From Synechococcus sp. WH 8109 (GTDB taxonomy: Bacteria > Cyanobacteriota > Cyanobacteriia > PCC-6307 > Cyanobiaceae), in the NCBI RefSeq assembly GCF_000161795.2, contig NZ_CP006882.1, positions 868,001 to 932,000 on the forward strand: 64,000 nucleotides of DNA. Reading direction: 5' to 3'. Within the stretch, counting starts at the first letter, position 1; every line of letters begins with the position of its first letter. The translations under genes and the position numbers were made by a program. Under the pieces are notes generated by a model that searched no databases, was not told where the DNA came from, and saw only the letters and a program-made list of their open reading frames with translations. Below are positions 25,033 to 33,426 of the stretch, in pieces.

Positions 25033-27522
25033 CTAACCCTCTCGTCTGAGCGCTTCGTCCTTCATCCTCTGAACCCGCTCCAAAACGGATTCATTGCTCA
25101 TCCTGTTGTTCAGCCGTTCCACTAACAGAGGAAAGGCCAATGGGCTGGGCCGAGGGGTTTCAACATGCAGCCATTCCTGGCTTGCAGCGCGTTTCAAGGC
25201 CGCCTCCAGTCGTGAGATCTCCAACTGGTCATCGAGTACCTCCTGCTGCGCCTGCAGCAGCAAGCGGTTGCTCGGCTCATGGCGGCTGAACACATCGAAC
25301 AGGAGCGATGCACTGATCTGAAGCTGACCGGTGCTTTTGCTCGATCCAGGGAATCCTCGGTTCATCAGTCCTGCGATCTGGGCGATGGCGCGGAACCGTC
25401 GCCGTTGCAGCTCGGAAAGATTCAGTGCGTTTTTGAGATCCCGCTCCAGCTTTTGGCGATCGAGCAGCAGATCGATGTGGTCCTCCAGCAACTCCGCCAT
25501 GGGGTAGCTCTTCGGTGCCAACAGCTCAAAGCCGTAGTCGTTCACCGACACCGTGATCGTGCCCCTCTCCAGACGGGTGAGCCGCGACGCCCAGAGGAAG
25601 CCGATTCCCTCGTGCACGAACCGTCCTTCAAAGGGGTATGCAAACAGGTGTGTGCCTTCCCGGGTGCGACAGGTCTCAATCAGCAGCTGCCCCACCGTCG
25701 GCAACACCGAGATGTCCTGTTGCCGATCAAACAGGGGCTTCAGAGCCTGCAGTTCAACGTTGTCGAGATCACCACGGCTGGCGCGGTCCACCTCAAGACG
25801 CAGGTGGTGGGTCAGCAGATCAGAGAGGGCCATTTGCCCCCCAGCCCAGGCAGGCACAGTGCGCGTTTTCTTGGTGCTCACCTTCACGTAAGCGGTCATG
25901 TCGCGCAGCCGCACGAATTCCAGCTGGCGGCCGGAGAAGAAGAACACATCCTTCGGCTTCAGCTGGCTGATGAAGGTCTCCTCCACATGGCCGAGCACAG
26001 CACCGCGAACAAAGCGCACAGTGATTGCTGGTGCGGCCGTGATCGTTCCAACGTTGAGACGGTGCAGCCGGGCGATGGACTTTTCGCGAACCCGGTAGCG
26101 CTGGCTTGTCTCCTCCCACTCGAGCTTGCGGTAACGAGGATAGGCCCCGAGGCACTCTCCTCCCTGCTCCAGAAACAGCATGCACCAGCCCCAATCCTCC
26201 TGGCTCAGCTCGGCGTAGGCCGCACAGCTGCGCACGGCCTGGAAGGTCTGCTCCGGATGGAAGCCAGGGCCGCAGGCCAACCCCGTGAGGTGCTGAAGCA
26301 GCACATCCAGAGGGGCTTTTGGCGGCTTGCGTTGTTCCACCAGCCCCTCCGCCAGTCCCCGACGCACAGCACTGAGTTCGAGCAGTTCGAGCGCATTGGT
26401 GGGCATGAACAGCACCTGGGATGTGCCGCCGGGCAAGTGCGCTGACCGCCCCGCCCGCTGCAGCAGCCGTGCCAGATTCTTTGGGCTGCCGATCTGCACC
26501 ACCTGTTCCACGGGTTGGAAGTCCACACCGAGGTCTAGGGAGCTGGTGCAGACCACCCAACGAATACCGCCGGCCTTCACGGAGGCCTCGATCGCTTCCC
26601 GCTCACTGCGATCGATGGCGCTGTGGTGCAGGGCCAACCCTTCCTCCATTTCCGGGCAGGCGAAGCGCAGACACTGGTGCCATCGCTCCGACTGATTGCG
26701 GGTGTTGGTGAACAGCAAGGTGCTGATCCCGGGATTGAGGCGGGCCACCAGCTCCTCGTACATCCGCAACCCGAGGTGTCCGGCCCAGGGGAAGCCATCG
26801 ATCGTCTCCGGAAGGATGCTTTGAATCTCCGTGCTGCGAGAAGGGGCGCCACCGATCAGCCGCGGCTCCCCTGCTGTTCCCAGGGCATGGCGCGCTGCCT
26901 GCTCCAGGTTGCCGATGGTGGCACTGATGGCCCAGGTCTGGAGCTGGGGGCGCAGCTGGCGCAACCAGCTCAGGCACAGCTCCGTCTGGCTGCCCCGTTT
27001 GCTGCCCATCAACTCGTGCCATTCATCGAGGATCACCGTCTCGAGTTGGCCAAACAGTTCTTCGGCCTTCGCGTTGCTAAGCAGCAGGGCGAGGGACTCC
27101 GGAGTCGTCACCAGAATCTGTGGTGGTGCCTTGAGCTGTTTCGTGCGTTCGCTGCTGCTGCTGTCTCCATTGCGGATGCCCACCCGAATCGGCCAACCCA
27201 TCGCCTCGATCGGTTCGCGGATCGCCAGCGATAAGTCACGACTGAGGGCCCGCAAGGGCGTGATGTAGAGCAGACGTATTCCCTTCAACGGCTGCTCCTC
27301 CGCCAACATCCGCGCGATCGGCCCCATCACGGCGGCGAAGGTTTTGCCGGACCCTGTGGGCACTTGGATCAACCCATTCCGCCCCGCTAAATAGGCGGTC
27401 CAGGTTTCCTGCTGAAAAGGAAGCGGCGTCCAGTTCCTTTGCGCGAACCAGGCATGAATCGGGTTCAAGCGAGGGTCGTTGGTTGTTGGGTTGGCCTTTG
27501 CCTTCGCTTTTGAAGCTGCCAT
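25033..27522 (-). CDS. Ligase-associated Lhr-like DEXH helicase
   Basis: 829 residues. Superfamily 2 helicase: Q-motif region LPFQQETW, Walker A PTGSGKT (55-61), DEWH (166-169) as motif II, SATIGN as motif III, and motif VI AGRSAH. The long C-terminal part matches the Lhr core class. It abuts an ATP-dependent DNA ligase (TGATG overlap) and lies near an MBL exonuclease, which is the layout of the ligase-associated DNA damage response module. It probably unwinds DNA during repair; the module was linked to cisplatin damage survival by family annotation. Confidence 0.9.
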   Translation of the reverse strand: MAASKAKAKANPTTNDPRLNPIHAWFAQRNWTPLPFQQETWTAYLAGRNGLIQVPTGSGKTFAAVMGPIARMLAEEQPLKGIRLLYITPLRALSRDLSLAIREPIEAMGWPIRVGIRNGDSSSSERTKQLKAPPQILVTTPESLALLLSNAKAEELFGQLETVILDEWHELMGSKRGSQTELCLSWLRQLRPQLQTWAISATIGNLEQAARHALGTAGEPRLIGGAPSRSTEIQSILPETIDGFPWAGHLGLRMYEELVARLNPGISTLLFTNTRNQSERWHQCLRFACPEMEEGLALHHSAIDRSEREAIEASVKAGGIRWVVCTSSLDLGVDFQPVEQVVQIGSPKNLARLLQRAGRSAHLPGGTSQVLFMPTNALELLELSAVRRGLAEGLVEQRKPPKAPLDVLLQHLTGLACGPGFHPEQTFQAVRSCAAYAELSQEDWGWCMLFLEQGGECLGAYPRYRKLEWEETSQRYRVREKSIARLHRLNVGTITAAPAITVRFVRGAVLGHVEETFISQLKPKDVFFFSGRQLEFVRLRDMTAYVKVSTKKTRTVPAWAGGQMALSDLLTHHLRLEVDRASRGDLDNVELQALKPLFDRQQDISVLPTVGQLLIETCRTREGTHLFAYPFEGRFVHEGIGFLWASRLTRLERGTITVSVNDYGFELLAPKSYPMAELLEDHIDLLLDRQKLERDLKNALNLSELQRRRFRAIAQIAGLMNRGFPGSSKSTGQLQISASLLFDVFSRHEPSNRLLLQAQQEVLDDQLEISRLEAALKRAASQEWLHVETPRPSPLAFPLLVERLNNRMSNESVLERVQRMKDEALRREG

Positions 27523-29177
27523 CAGCGGTTTTCGATCAATGCCATCGCGGTCTGGAGTGAATCCGCTTCATTGGCGGGTTTGTCGCGTCGCCAGCGCAGG
27601 ATGCGCGGGAAACGCACGGCGATGCCGGATTTATGGCGTTTTGAGGGGTGGATGCCTTCAAAGCCGATTTCAAACACCAGCTCGGATTTCAGGGACCGTG
27701 CCGGTCCGAAGCGCTGCAGGGTGTTGCGCCGGATCCAGCGGTCAAGCTCGAGGATTTCGACATCGTTGAGGCCGGAATAGGCCTTGGCGAAGGTCACCAA
27801 CTGCGGCTCTTCAGCGTTGGTCCAGAGGCCGAAGGTGTAATCGGTGAACAGATTGGCGCGACGCCCACTGCCGGCCTGGGCGTATAGGAGCACCGCATCG
27901 AGGGTCATCGGCTCCAGCTTGTGTTTCCACCAGTTGCCGCGTTTGCGGCCGCTCAGGTAGGGCGATTCCGCCTGTTTGAGCATCAGTCCTTCGGCGTTGT
28001 GTTGACGGGCCTGGTTGCGCTGTGTCTCCAATTCCTCCCAGGAGTCGATCGACCAGGACGGGCTCTGCTTCAACCGCCACGAATCGGGATGCTTGATGCT
28101 GCCCAGCAGCGCAGCCAGCTGCTGCTGGCGCTGCCGTAATACCTGCTGGCGGATGTCGACGCCCTGATGTTCCAGCAGGTCGTAGGCGATGAACCGCATC
28201 GGGCAATCCCGTTTCAACGTTGCTCCAACGGTTTTGCGGCCGAGTCGTCGTTGCAGCTGATCAAAGCCAAGCGGCGCGGCCGCATCCTGTTGCCAGCAGA
28301 TCAGCTCGCCGTCGAGAACGCTGCCTGATGGCAAAGCCTGAGCCACATCCACAAGTTCAGGGAAGCTCTCGTTGACCAGTTCTTCTCCACGGCTCCAGAG
28401 GTAGACGCCGGAACCGCGGTGAATCAGCTGACCGCGGATCCCATCCCATTTCCACTCCAGTTGCCAATCTTTTGCGGATGTCTCCTGCAGTCGTTCGGGT
28501 TCCAGGGGGCTGGCGAGATAAAAGGGGTACGGCGTGCCACTGGAGCGGTGCTCATCCGGAGTCGCAGGGGCGGTGAGTTGATCAAATCGCTCAGCGGAGG
28601 GCTCAAAGCCCCCCATCAGCCGTTGCACCACCAAACTTTCCTCGAGATCAAACGCTTCGGCGATGGCGCGGCTGATCAGTCCCGTCGACACGCCCACACG
28701 GAATCCCCCCGTGAGCAACTTGTTGACGATGAAGTGTTGATCGCGCGGGGTTCGGTGCCAGAGCCAGATCACCGCGTTGGCCTGATCTTCATCGCTTCTG
28801 GTGCTGATGGCCGGCAGCAGGGTGTCCATCCACCAGCGCAGGGGCATGTCTCCCTCCCCGCTGGGCAGACCGGGATCGGTGGCTTCAAACCGCTCTTGTA
28901 CGGCGGGCCAGAGCAGGCTGATGGTTTCGGCTGAATCGCCAACCTGGCCGTAGCAGTCGTCGATCAGCCAATCCGGCAGACCACCCCGGTCCCGCAGGAT
29001 GTCGCGCAGTCGGCGACCGGTGATCAAGCGGCGGCTTCGTTTGCCCAACAGCAGAGTCAACGCCCAGGCCGCCTCCCCTGCTTCGACCCCCTGAAAGTGA
29101 TCCACCAGCGCCTGCACCTTGGCCTTGGTGCCCGTGACCTGATCCAACTGATTGAACAGGTCCTGAAAGGCCCGCAT
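27522..29177 (-). CDS. ATP-dependent DNA ligase (repair module)
   Basis: 551 residues from ATG 29177. The N-terminal 220 residues are the helical DNA-binding domain. The adenylation domain begins with EWKWDGIRGQ, in which Lys243 of KWDG is the nucleotidyl-accepting residue, followed by LDGELI and a late basic block (KHKLEPMTLDAVL). The C-terminus is an OB fold. This is an LigB/LigD-type ATP ligase distinct from the NAD-dependent LigA of bacterial replication, so it serves repair. One-base overlap with the helicase gene implies co-expression. Confidence 0.9.
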   Translation of the reverse strand: MRAFQDLFNQLDQVTGTKAKVQALVDHFQGVEAGEAAWALTLLLGKRSRRLITGRRLRDILRDRGGLPDWLIDDCYGQVGDSAETISLLWPAVQERFEATDPGLPSGEGDMPLRWWMDTLLPAISTRSDEDQANAVIWLWHRTPRDQHFIVNKLLTGGFRVGVSTGLISRAIAEAFDLEESLVVQRLMGGFEPSAERFDQLTAPATPDEHRSSGTPYPFYLASPLEPERLQETSAKDWQLEWKWDGIRGQLIHRGSGVYLWSRGEELVNESFPELVDVAQALPSGSVLDGELICWQQDAAAPLGFDQLQRRLGRKTVGATLKRDCPMRFIAYDLLEHQGVDIRQQVLRQRQQQLAALLGSIKHPDSWRLKQSPSWSIDSWEELETQRNQARQHNAEGLMLKQAESPYLSGRKRGNWWKHKLEPMTLDAVLLYAQAGSGRRANLFTDYTFGLWTNAEEPQLVTFAKAYSGLNDVEILELDRWIRRNTLQRFGPARSLKSELVFEIGFEGIHPSKRHKSGIAVRFPRILRWRRDKPANEADSLQTAMALIENR

Positions 29178-29295
29178 GCGCGCTTGAACGGGATGGATGA
29201 ATTGCACGCCATCCTGACAAGACATTTTGTGAGTAGTGCTGGAAATCCGGCGCAGACCTGTGTTGATCTGAGCGACAGCTTTCTGAATTAGCCGG

Positions 29296-29556
29296 ATGGC
29301 ACTTCTCTGGGACAACCTGGCGCAACAACTAGACACTGTCCGCGCCACTGAGTCAGCAACTGCCGTAGTGACTCCTGTGTCTGTTCCGGAAACAGCGGAG
29401 GATCCTTCCGACCGTCAACGTCGACTCCAGAAGGCACTTGAAGCCGTCAAGGACAGCGGCAACGCCATGATGATCGAGTCACTCAATGCCGCGATTGAAG
29501 GCCGTCAGGCGAATCTCAATCTCCCCGAGCTGCCTGACGGCATCGCCAAGTTCTAG
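29296..29556 (+). CDS. Small hypothetical protein
   Basis: 86 residues, helical, with a Val/Pro/Glu-rich middle (TPVSVPETAEDPSDRQ) and a conserved-looking second half (RRLQKALEAVKDSGNAMMIESLNAAIEGR). It lies between two genes of the repair module on the opposite strand: divergent from the ligase (119-base gap) and overlapping the exonuclease 3' end by 4 bases. Whether it belongs to the module is unknown; it also fits the general picocyanobacterial hypothetical pool. Confidence 0.6.
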   Translation: MALLWDNLAQQLDTVRATESATAVVTPVSVPETAEDPSDRQRRLQKALEAVKDSGNAMMIESLNAAIEGRQANLNLPELPDGIAKF

Positions 29557-30539
29557 TCCGACTCCCCTTCGAACAAGGTCTCCAGCGGCTCCGCATCCAC
29601 ACCCTCCACCTCCCGCAGGTAACGGGCCAAAACGTCACTCTGCCCATGGGTGACGTACACCTTGCGGGCGCCGCTGTCGCGAACGGTCTGGATCAGTCCA
29701 GGCCAGTCGGCGTGATCACTAAGCACGAATCCCCGCTCGTAGCCCCGCCGTCTACGGGCTCCGCGCACGGCCATCCAGCCGGAGGCAAAGGCGGTTTGGG
29801 GTGACTTGAAGCGGCGCATCCAGCTGGAGCGATGGGCCGACGGCGGCGCCAGGATCAACCGCCCTTCGAGCGGATCTTTGCGGGGCAGTTCGCTGACGGG
29901 ACGACTGGGGGTCATCGGAACCCCTGCGTCGCGGTAATGACGGGTAACCGTTTCAACGGCGCCATGAAGCAGCACCTCCTCCTCCACGCCGATGGCCTTC
30001 AGTTCAGCCAGCAAGCGTTGGGCTTTGCCGAAGGCGTAGCAGAACAGCAGGGATGGCCTGCTGCGATCACGGCTCCACCAGGCATGGATCTCCTTGGCCA
30101 CCTGCTCACCGCTTTGCCAGCGATAGATCGGCATCCCGAAGGTGGCTTCGGTGATCAACACATCGCAGCGCACCGGTTCAAAGGGTTCGCAACTGGGATC
30201 GTCATCCCGTTTGTAATCCCCACTGACCACCCATACCTCACCCTCCGATTCCAGGCGGATCTGCGCTGAACCGAGCACGTGCCCGGCGCTGTGAAACGAC
30301 ACCTTGCACTGCCCCAGCCAGTGTTCTTCGCCGTAGGCAACCGGGTGAAGCGTGATGTCCTGGCCAAGCCTCTGGCGCAGAACTCCTTCACTGGAGGCCA
30401 CAGCCCAGTACTCCCCGCATCCGGTTCGGGCGTGGTCAGCATGGGCGTGGGTGATCAGGGCACGGGGAACCGGACGCCACGGATCGACCCAGGCCTTTGC
30501 GGCACGGCAATACAACCCCTCCGGTGTGCGTTCGATCAA
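29553..30539 (-). CDS. Ligase-associated MBL-fold DNA exonuclease
   Basis: 328 residues. The metallo-beta-lactamase metal motif HAHADH is at residues 31-36, followed by HSAGHVLGSAQ and VVSGDYKRDDD in the order of the beta-CASP nuclease family (CPSF73/SNM1-like). The late SDHADWPGL supplies the C-terminal metal His. Relatives associated with ATP ligases act on DNA ends. It is separated from the ligase gene by the inverted 29296-29556 gene, so the module is not a single operon here. Confidence 0.88.
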   Translation of the reverse strand: MIERTPEGLYCRAAKAWVDPWRPVPRALITHAHADHARTGCGEYWAVASSEGVLRQRLGQDITLHPVAYGEEHWLGQCKVSFHSAGHVLGSAQIRLESEGEVWVVSGDYKRDDDPSCEPFEPVRCDVLITEATFGMPIYRWQSGEQVAKEIHAWWSRDRSRPSLLFCYAFGKAQRLLAELKAIGVEEEVLLHGAVETVTRHYRDAGVPMTPSRPVSELPRKDPLEGRLILAPPSAHRSSWMRRFKSPQTAFASGWMAVRGARRRRGYERGFVLSDHADWPGLIQTVRDSGARKVYVTHGQSDVLARYLREVEGVDAEPLETLFEGESD

Positions 30540-30606: not shown

Positions 30607-30840
30607 TTGAAGCTGCTCGCTGCCGCTCTCTTTGTTTCAGCCCTGGCTGTGCCCAGTTCCGCTTTTGCTCAGAAAAAGATTCCCAAGGCCAAAGGCCACA
30701 ACCAATGCCCCCTGGGTTACGTGAACACTCTGGGCACCACCTGTGTGTCTCCGATCTATTACGAGATGAAGCCCACCCATGGTGAAGCCTGCCCCTCCGG
30801 CTGGATGAATGTTGGCGCTGGCTATTGCCGTAAGAAGTGA
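30607..30840 (+). CDS. Secreted cysteine-containing protein
   Basis: 77 residues from TTG 30607. A signal peptide (KLLAAALFVSALAVPSSAFA, cleavage after AFA near 21) precedes a mature domain of about 56 residues with four cysteines (NQCPLGY, TTCVSP, EACPSG, GYCRKK), enough for two disulfides. The repeated C-P-x-G pattern suggests a duplicated unit. Probably periplasmic. The divergent exonuclease gene starts 68 bases upstream. Confidence 0.7.
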   Translation: MKLLAAALFVSALAVPSSAFAQKKIPKAKGHNQCPLGYVNTLGTTCVSPIYYEMKPTHGEACPSGWMNVGAGYCRKK

Positions 30841-32524: not shown

Positions 32525-32568
32525 CAGGACCGATTCGGGGCAGGATGGCCATAGCCTAGGCATTCGCT

Positions 32569-33426
32569 CTGAAGCACCTGCGACTTGCCATTGCCGGTGA
32601 TCTGCACGGCGCCTGGGGCGACGCGGATGAGCAGCTGCTGCAGCAGCTCAAGCCCGACGCTGTTCTCTTCGTTGGTGATCTTGCTGATGGGGATCTGCGT
32701 CTGACGCGCCGGATCACGCGGCTTCCCTTCCCCGTGGCCGTGATCCTGGGGAACCACGACCGCGGGCGAGATCGCAGTGGCGGCATCCTCGAGCAACAAC
32801 TCGCTGTGCTCGGCGATTTCCATTGCGCCTGGCGCTCAATCCAATGGCCGGAGCTCCCGTTGACGGTTGTGGGTGCGCGTCCCTGCAGTGCTGGTGGAGG
32901 TTTTCATCTGTCGAAAGCGGTAGAGGCGGTGTACGGCCCGGCGTCGCTTGAGGCTTCAGCCGAGCGGATTGTGCAGGCCGCTGCTGATGTACCCGCTGAT
33001 CAGCCCTTGATCGTCATGGCCCACTGCGGTCCCTCAGGGTTGGGATCCGAGGCCGCCAGTCCCTGCGGACGCGACTGGAAGACACCGGCGGTGGACTGGG
33101 GGGATCAGGATCTGGCACTTGCCCTGGACCGCATGGCTAAAGACCGACCTGCCGATCTGGTGATCTTTGGCCACATGCACCATGCCCTCAAGCGCGGCTC
33201 TGGCTTCCGCCAGACCCTGTTGCGTCATCGTCATGGAACCGCGCTGATCAATGCCGCCTGTGTGCCGCGTTCAGGGGTTGATGGGCAAGGTCGAACGCTG
33301 CTGCATCTCTCCTGGGCTGAATTCCAGGGGGCCAGCCTCATTCAGCTCGCCCATCGCTGGTACACCCCCGATGCTGAGTTGATTCATCAGGAGCAGTTGC
33401 CGATCGATGCTCCGTTGCCGTGCTGA
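32569..33426 (+). CDS. Metallophosphoesterase (cyanobacterial type)
   Basis: 285 residues if begun at CTG 32569. Metal motifs appear in order: GDLHG, GDLAD, GNHDRG, a late AHCGPSG and GHMHH. The first two lie upstream of the nearest GTG (32734), so a shorter protein would be inactive. From the stop at 32557 to the GDLHG motif only CTG codons (32569, 32578) could initiate, so a non-ATG start is needed. Family members are calcineurin-like phosphatases of cyanobacteria and plants with unknown substrate. The stop overlaps the next gene by 7 bases. Confidence 0.8.

Follow-up and report, generated by a model that had tools for sequence, protein, structure and literature searches.

The 64,000-nucleotide stretch of Synechococcus sp. 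WH 8109 analysed here (the window; positions 868001-932000 of a single 2,111,515-base contig, in a genome listed as 99.99% complete) carries three genes of a DNA repair set, which encode an Lhr-Core helicase, a LigB-type ATP-dependent DNA ligase and a metallo-beta-lactamase-fold (MBL) exonuclease. The fourth member, the metallophosphoesterase PdeM (MPE), was found in the same genome, about 262 kb from the helicase gene lhr. All four proteins belong to the expected families and carry the expected motifs, and across the genomes sampled the four genes mostly occur together. We consider it very probable that these genes make up the bacterial repair set already known as LigB / Lhr-Core / MBL exonuclease / MPE (PdeM), complete in the genome and with PdeM relocated.

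The four repair genes in the WH 8109 genome

The helicase, ligase and exonuclease genes lie contiguously on the minus strand, and all three proteins scored above their NCBIfam equivalog cut-offs. The Lhr-Core DNA helicase (ligase-associated DEXH helicase; 25033-27522, minus strand) matched TIGR04121 with 1069.9 bits (cut-off 850). It is a protein of 829 amino acids without the C-terminal extension, in which the Pfam domains DEAD, Helicase_C, WH_Lhr and DEAD_assoc and the motifs GSGKT, DEWH, SAT and QRAGR were found, and at E <=1e-20 it matched the PDB entries 5v9x and 7lhl, both titled ATP-dependent DNA helicase, which we take to be M. smegmatis Lhr. The ligase (27522-29177, minus strand) scored 574.2 bits against TIGR04120 (cut-off 400) and 721.7 bits against NF006701 (cut-off 543), with a KxDGxR motif at residue 243. 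Its open reading frame (ORF), 27522-29348 with 608 amino acids, is over-long, the TIGR04120 match beginning at residue 59; the ATG at 29177, giving 551 amino acids, is the likely start. The helicase start and the ligase stop share one base (TGATG), and both genes are therefore probably translated from one message. The exonuclease (29553-30539, minus strand, TTG start) matched TIGR04122 with 475.6 bits (cut-off 325) and has an HxHxDH motif at residue 31. No second copy of the module was found, as the genome search returned a single match each for the ligase (E 0.001), the helicase (1e-100) and the exonuclease (1e-30). An earlier reading of the window made from its letters alone (the sequence-only reading) had placed the three genes in the ligase-associated DNA damage response set, and the above-cut-off scores to TIGR04121, TIGR04120 and TIGR04122 agree with it. 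Its ORF coordinates for these genes and for a small gene at 29296-29556 were also correct, with the likely ligase start at 29177 to be added.

The same reading had noted that PdeM does not adjoin the three genes, and indeed none was found beside them in the window. Its further claim, that the module is without the usual endonuclease, did not survive the genome search it had itself proposed: PdeM lies at G000:C1:630649-631257 (G000 being the window's genome), and not beside a second copy of the module, an arrangement the reading had also considered. The PdeM protein of 224 amino acids scored 185.5 bits against the hypothetical-equivalog family TIGR04123 (cut-off 150), and its motifs DxHxGK, GDxxH, GNHD and GHxH are intact. 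At E <=0.001 its only PDB matches were 6nvo and 6nvp (E 1.7e-18), both titled 'Nuclease MPE' and presumably P. putida MPE, to go by the title of a cited paper. The motifs sought in the helicase, ligase, exonuclease and PdeM were all found.

A phosphoesterase within the window (32563-33426), adjoining nadA, was considered as a stand-in for PdeM and rejected, because it belongs to a different family (TIGR04168, 332.8 bits, cut-off 200) and a true PdeM exists; the two have the metallophosphoesterase superfamily in common. The sequence-only reading had likewise assigned this protein, at 32.6 kb, to a cyanobacterial type other than PdeM.

Several neighbouring genes were also recorded. Upstream of the exonuclease and divergent from it, an ORF of 77 amino acids (30607-30840, plus strand) is kept in most same-genus loci, and its sole match is a sub-threshold one to CPW_WPC. 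Beside the relocated pdeM, a protein of 501 amino acids with no Pfam or NCBIfam match (L007:2082-3587, plus strand) overlaps the pdeM end. It lies downstream of pdeM in 5/5 same-genus genomes and adjoins pdeM in five of the eight other-genus loci compared (L109, L110, L113, L115 and L116 among L109-L116). Another gene beside pdeM (L007:57-1298, minus strand; SBP_bac_3, Ion_trans_2, Lig_chan) encodes an ion channel that carries a solute-binding domain and resembles a bacterial ionotropic glutamate receptor.

Co-occurrence and gene order in relatives

The distribution of the four genes was examined in two overlapping samples, one of 121 genomes of the family and one of 292 genomes of the phylum. 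In the family sample only matches of at least 100 bits were counted, which takes in the partial genes of G069 and G074 and leaves out weak ligase and PdeM matches elsewhere; the helicase was searched at E 1e-100 and the exonuclease at 1e-30, thresholds that small fragments may escape. The ligase was found in 45 genomes, the helicase in 43, the exonuclease in 46 and PdeM in 43, and 42 of the 46 genomes holding any of the genes had all four. Hypergeometric values of about 1e-27 to 1e-32 were obtained for this sample, which ignore shared descent and are not probabilities. In the phylum sample (exonuclease at E 1e-60, PdeM at 1e-25, ligase at 1e-80, helicase counted above its family cut-off) the same 29 genomes carry each of the four genes, as checked by set equality. 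A further 32 phylum genomes have below-cut-off relatives of the helicase, and none of them appears in the exonuclease, PdeM or ligase lists at those thresholds. The co-conservation of the three window genes, to which the sequence-only reading had tied its case, is thus strong.

Such co-occurrence is also seen where the genes are not close together. The family sample holds five genomes of the window's genus, WH 8109 among them; PdeM is on a different contig from lhr in G004 and 262-468 kb away from it in the others. The phylum sample adds three genomes of this genus (G366, G371, G388), in which a distance of over 250 kb separates PdeM from the rest of the set. In other genera PdeM often follows lhr: the order nadA - exo - lig - lhr - pdeM was seen in three genera (G032, G045, G054; loci L113-L115), and pdeM comes 37 bases after lhr in three g17 genomes. 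Among the 42 family-sample genomes with all four genes, lhr and pdeM are no more than 1 kb apart in 10 and no more than 10 kb apart in 26; the spacing exceeds 50 kb in 10, the two genes are on different contigs in 4, and the remaining 2 are intermediate. The simplest reading is that an ancestral four-gene cluster was split in the window's genus. Four of the phylum carriers are from other families, and in three of these the dispersal goes further. The genes lie at 0.15, 0.56, 3.88 and 4.79 Mb on the single 5.5-Mb contig of G131, and in G180 and G281 each of the four is on a different contig. They are on four contigs in G321 too, an assembly of 120 contigs, so that the true spacing is not shown there. 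The four genes are mostly kept or lacked together, even where unlinked, and because of this the enzymes probably act in one pathway for which clustering is not needed.

Several observations weigh against a complete and jointly kept set. Twenty-five of the 29 phylum carriers belong to the window's own family, and the co-occurrence is uncorrected for phylogeny. Some carriers rest partly on below-cut-off fragments (ligase, exonuclease and PdeM of G074; helicase of G069), and the ligase and PdeM of G321 in the phylum sample are partial and below cut-off. The set is incomplete in G097, G105 and G107, which are 82-86% complete, and in G106, which is listed as 99% complete. G106 has the helicase, ligase and exonuclease, and no PdeM match was found at E 0.001 in its whole genome. 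Its alignment (C14, L146) to G045 of the same genus ends at the 5' end of pdeM, which looks like a true loss of PdeM, and the other three genes can accordingly persist, for some time at least, in a genome that lacks it. Nor is co-regulation of the set by LexA in an SOS response supported. With a cyanobacterial LexA-box pattern, no site was found near the repair genes in the window, where matches with at most 1 mismatch numbered 15 per 64 kb against 9.7 expected. The core of the box gave 6 matches in 43 loci, none of them in the window genome's own loci. This total is at chance level, as 20 first-order resamplings gave 2-9 matches and 4.25 are expected. Three of the six, palindromic and of the GTAC type, lie near starts of set genes in other genomes (L114:10405 upstream of exo, L154:3109 upstream of lig, L140:798 at the lhr start), and LexA may have a role in these single lineages.

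G106, together with the absence of PdeM next to the window genes, would also fit a reduced three-enzyme module that works without the MPE/PdeM endonuclease. For the WH 8109 genome this is refuted by the above-cut-off PdeM with intact motifs, provided that the gene is active, and the four genes occur together in all but four family carriers and in every phylum carrier (two of G321's as fragments), which leaves such a module very improbable here. We give even less credence to a defence island in place of a repair module. The helicase does match 47 PADLOC models, best BrxHI/BrxHII at 209 bits, but it scores 1070 bits against the repair equivalog, the other five proteins scanned match no PADLOC family, and the region is flanked by nadA and a PfkB-family gene, nadA adjoining exo across genera.

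Irregular forms of individual genes were seen in some relatives. The idea that the G106 exonuclease is a pseudogene was dropped, since the TGA falls within the final three codons of the match, and residues 1-320 align unbroken. In G062 (C1:208761-210797) the ligase matches TIGR04120 in three pieces inside one open frame of 939 amino acids, which suggests insertions within the protein. G075 has a second helicase-family match away from the main gene, at C1:944928-945680, which covers the C-terminal part only (positions 557-803 of 804). In two same-genus genomes, G061 and G112, an alpha-amylase-family gene on the opposite strand lies between ligase and helicase (L106:5383-7230 and L108:6539-8587, both minus strand), assigned by Alpha-amylase and CBM_20 domains in L106 and by likeness in L108.

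The 86-amino-acid gene between ligase and exonuclease

The small gene that the sequence-only reading had placed between ligase and exonuclease is real. It encodes a conserved protein of 86 amino acids (29296-29556, plus strand; 11-member alignment A1) and runs antiparallel to the repair genes, its stop overlapping the exonuclease stop in a 4-base CTAG. Judged from codon changes among relatives, the ORF is evidently a gene under purifying selection, because omega was 0.07-0.27 in 34 of 36 pairs of nine close relatives (two undefined), many of the pairs being saturated at synonymous sites. The protein has no Pfam, PHROG or PADLOC match, a chance-level NCBIfam match only (E 0.007), and no solved-structure relative in the PDB better than E 0.5. 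A phage origin was considered and rejected, as none of the 11 members had a PHROG match and a tblastn search with the window protein against 50,697 phage records gave none at E 0.01.

The sequence-only reading had asked whether the gene keeps this position across strains, and it does so within the genus. Of the genomes of this genus, the window's own among them, all five in the family sample have the gene at the exonuclease-ligase junction, as do two of three further ones (G366, G388), making 7/8, and it also lies between ligase and exonuclease in five marine Synechococcus contigs (L137-L141). The exception is G371, whose junction holds another insertion and no 86-amino-acid gene; the search there covered the junction and not the whole genome. 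Elsewhere the position is not kept: relatives of the gene lie away from the ligase in 4/4 members of genus g24 and 2/4 of genus g9, and inspection by eye of the ORFs around five of these displaced copies revealed no recognisable repair gene. Of the 40 genomes of other genera with both exonuclease and ligase, 16 have a gap of 11-83 bases between the two, for which reason the gene looks inserted. Since it is antiparallel and lies elsewhere in two genera, its position alone is no proof of membership in the module.

The 86-amino-acid protein could serve the ligase/exonuclease pathway of this lineage as a fifth component or as a regulator, its expression being divergent from that of the ligase. Its retention at the junction and the purifying selection on it would fit such a role, and all 11 clear carriers in the family sample, from three genera, also have the ligase, which speaks against a mere bystander. 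But besides the displaced copies in g9 and g24 and the G371 junction, G009 and G064 have the repair set without the gene, G002, with 0/4 repair genes, gives a weak partial match to it, and an association drawn from three genera is indistinguishable from shared descent. We therefore hold a fifth component to be unlikely; the gene is probably a lineage-specific insertion, a neighbour of the set and not a part of it, at a junction where other genes are inserted as well.

Two further genes were seen at this junction. In G112 a GAF-domain gene occupies it (L108:3857-4576), and the insertion in G371 (L160, between 8798 and 10813) is a GAF-domain gene by likeness, judged by eye.

Known systems and meaning for cyanobacterial repair

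A LigB / Lhr-Core / MPE / Exo nucleic acid repair gene cluster was reportedly described in Pseudomonas putida by Ejaz and Shuman in 2018 and by Ejaz and colleagues in 2019. Shared with it are all four protein families with the expected motifs and the one-base overlap of ligase and helicase. The differences lie in the arrangement, in that here PdeM/MPE is about 262 kb distant from the cluster and a small antiparallel gene splits the ligase from the exonuclease. Compared with the 'ligase-associated DNA damage response' set of NCBI (TIGR04120-TIGR04123), each of the four proteins exceeds the curated cut-off, whereas the genes are not fully clustered in the window's genus and are fully dispersed in G131, G180 and G281. 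Clustering of all four, a usual but not universal feature of the set, is thus not seen in the window genome.

As described in an excerpt of one publication, LigB, Lhr, a phosphodiesterase and an MBL protein form an operon, LigB occurs in cyanobacteria such as Prochlorococcus marinus, and the lesion repaired by the LigB/Lhr/Exo/MPE pathway is still unknown (PMC10140301). Part of another reports MPE near blhr in 276/319 genomes, on which account clustering appears typical rather than defining (PMC8301817). An ATP-dependent DNA ligase, not necessarily LigB, is listed in an extract as lost early in Prochlorococcus genome reduction (PMC3940434, Table 6). Among the matches listed in the open-licence literature, none dealt with a set that cyanobacteria retain jointly in dispersed form.

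Going by characterised relatives, Lhr-Core would travel 3'-to-5' on single-stranded DNA, a direction also given in an excerpt of PMC7437997, and would open the duplex near a lesion. PdeM, as a manganese-dependent single-strand endonuclease, would cut the exposed strand, after which the MBL exonuclease would trim the ends and LigB would seal the nick; that the steps follow one another in this way is our own inference. The lesion may be a cross-link or a bulky adduct, to judge from the family name 'cisplatin damage response'.

The repair set itself has been described before, and its co-retention without clustering is only a mildly new point. We tentatively suggest, at somewhat less than even odds, that the cyanobacterial four-enzyme set is one obligate pathway, kept or lost as a unit even if scattered over a genome of several megabases, that the operon known from elsewhere is not what holds it together, and that in the marine Synechococcus genus the locus has gained a small protein encoded divergently. 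The result corrects a false absence, since the module looks incomplete to anyone who reads only its surroundings. The nearly all-or-none distribution, unlinked genomes included, is evidence beside operon structure for joint action of the four enzymes, and the unlinked set of G131 and the PdeM-less set of G106 offer natural test cases.

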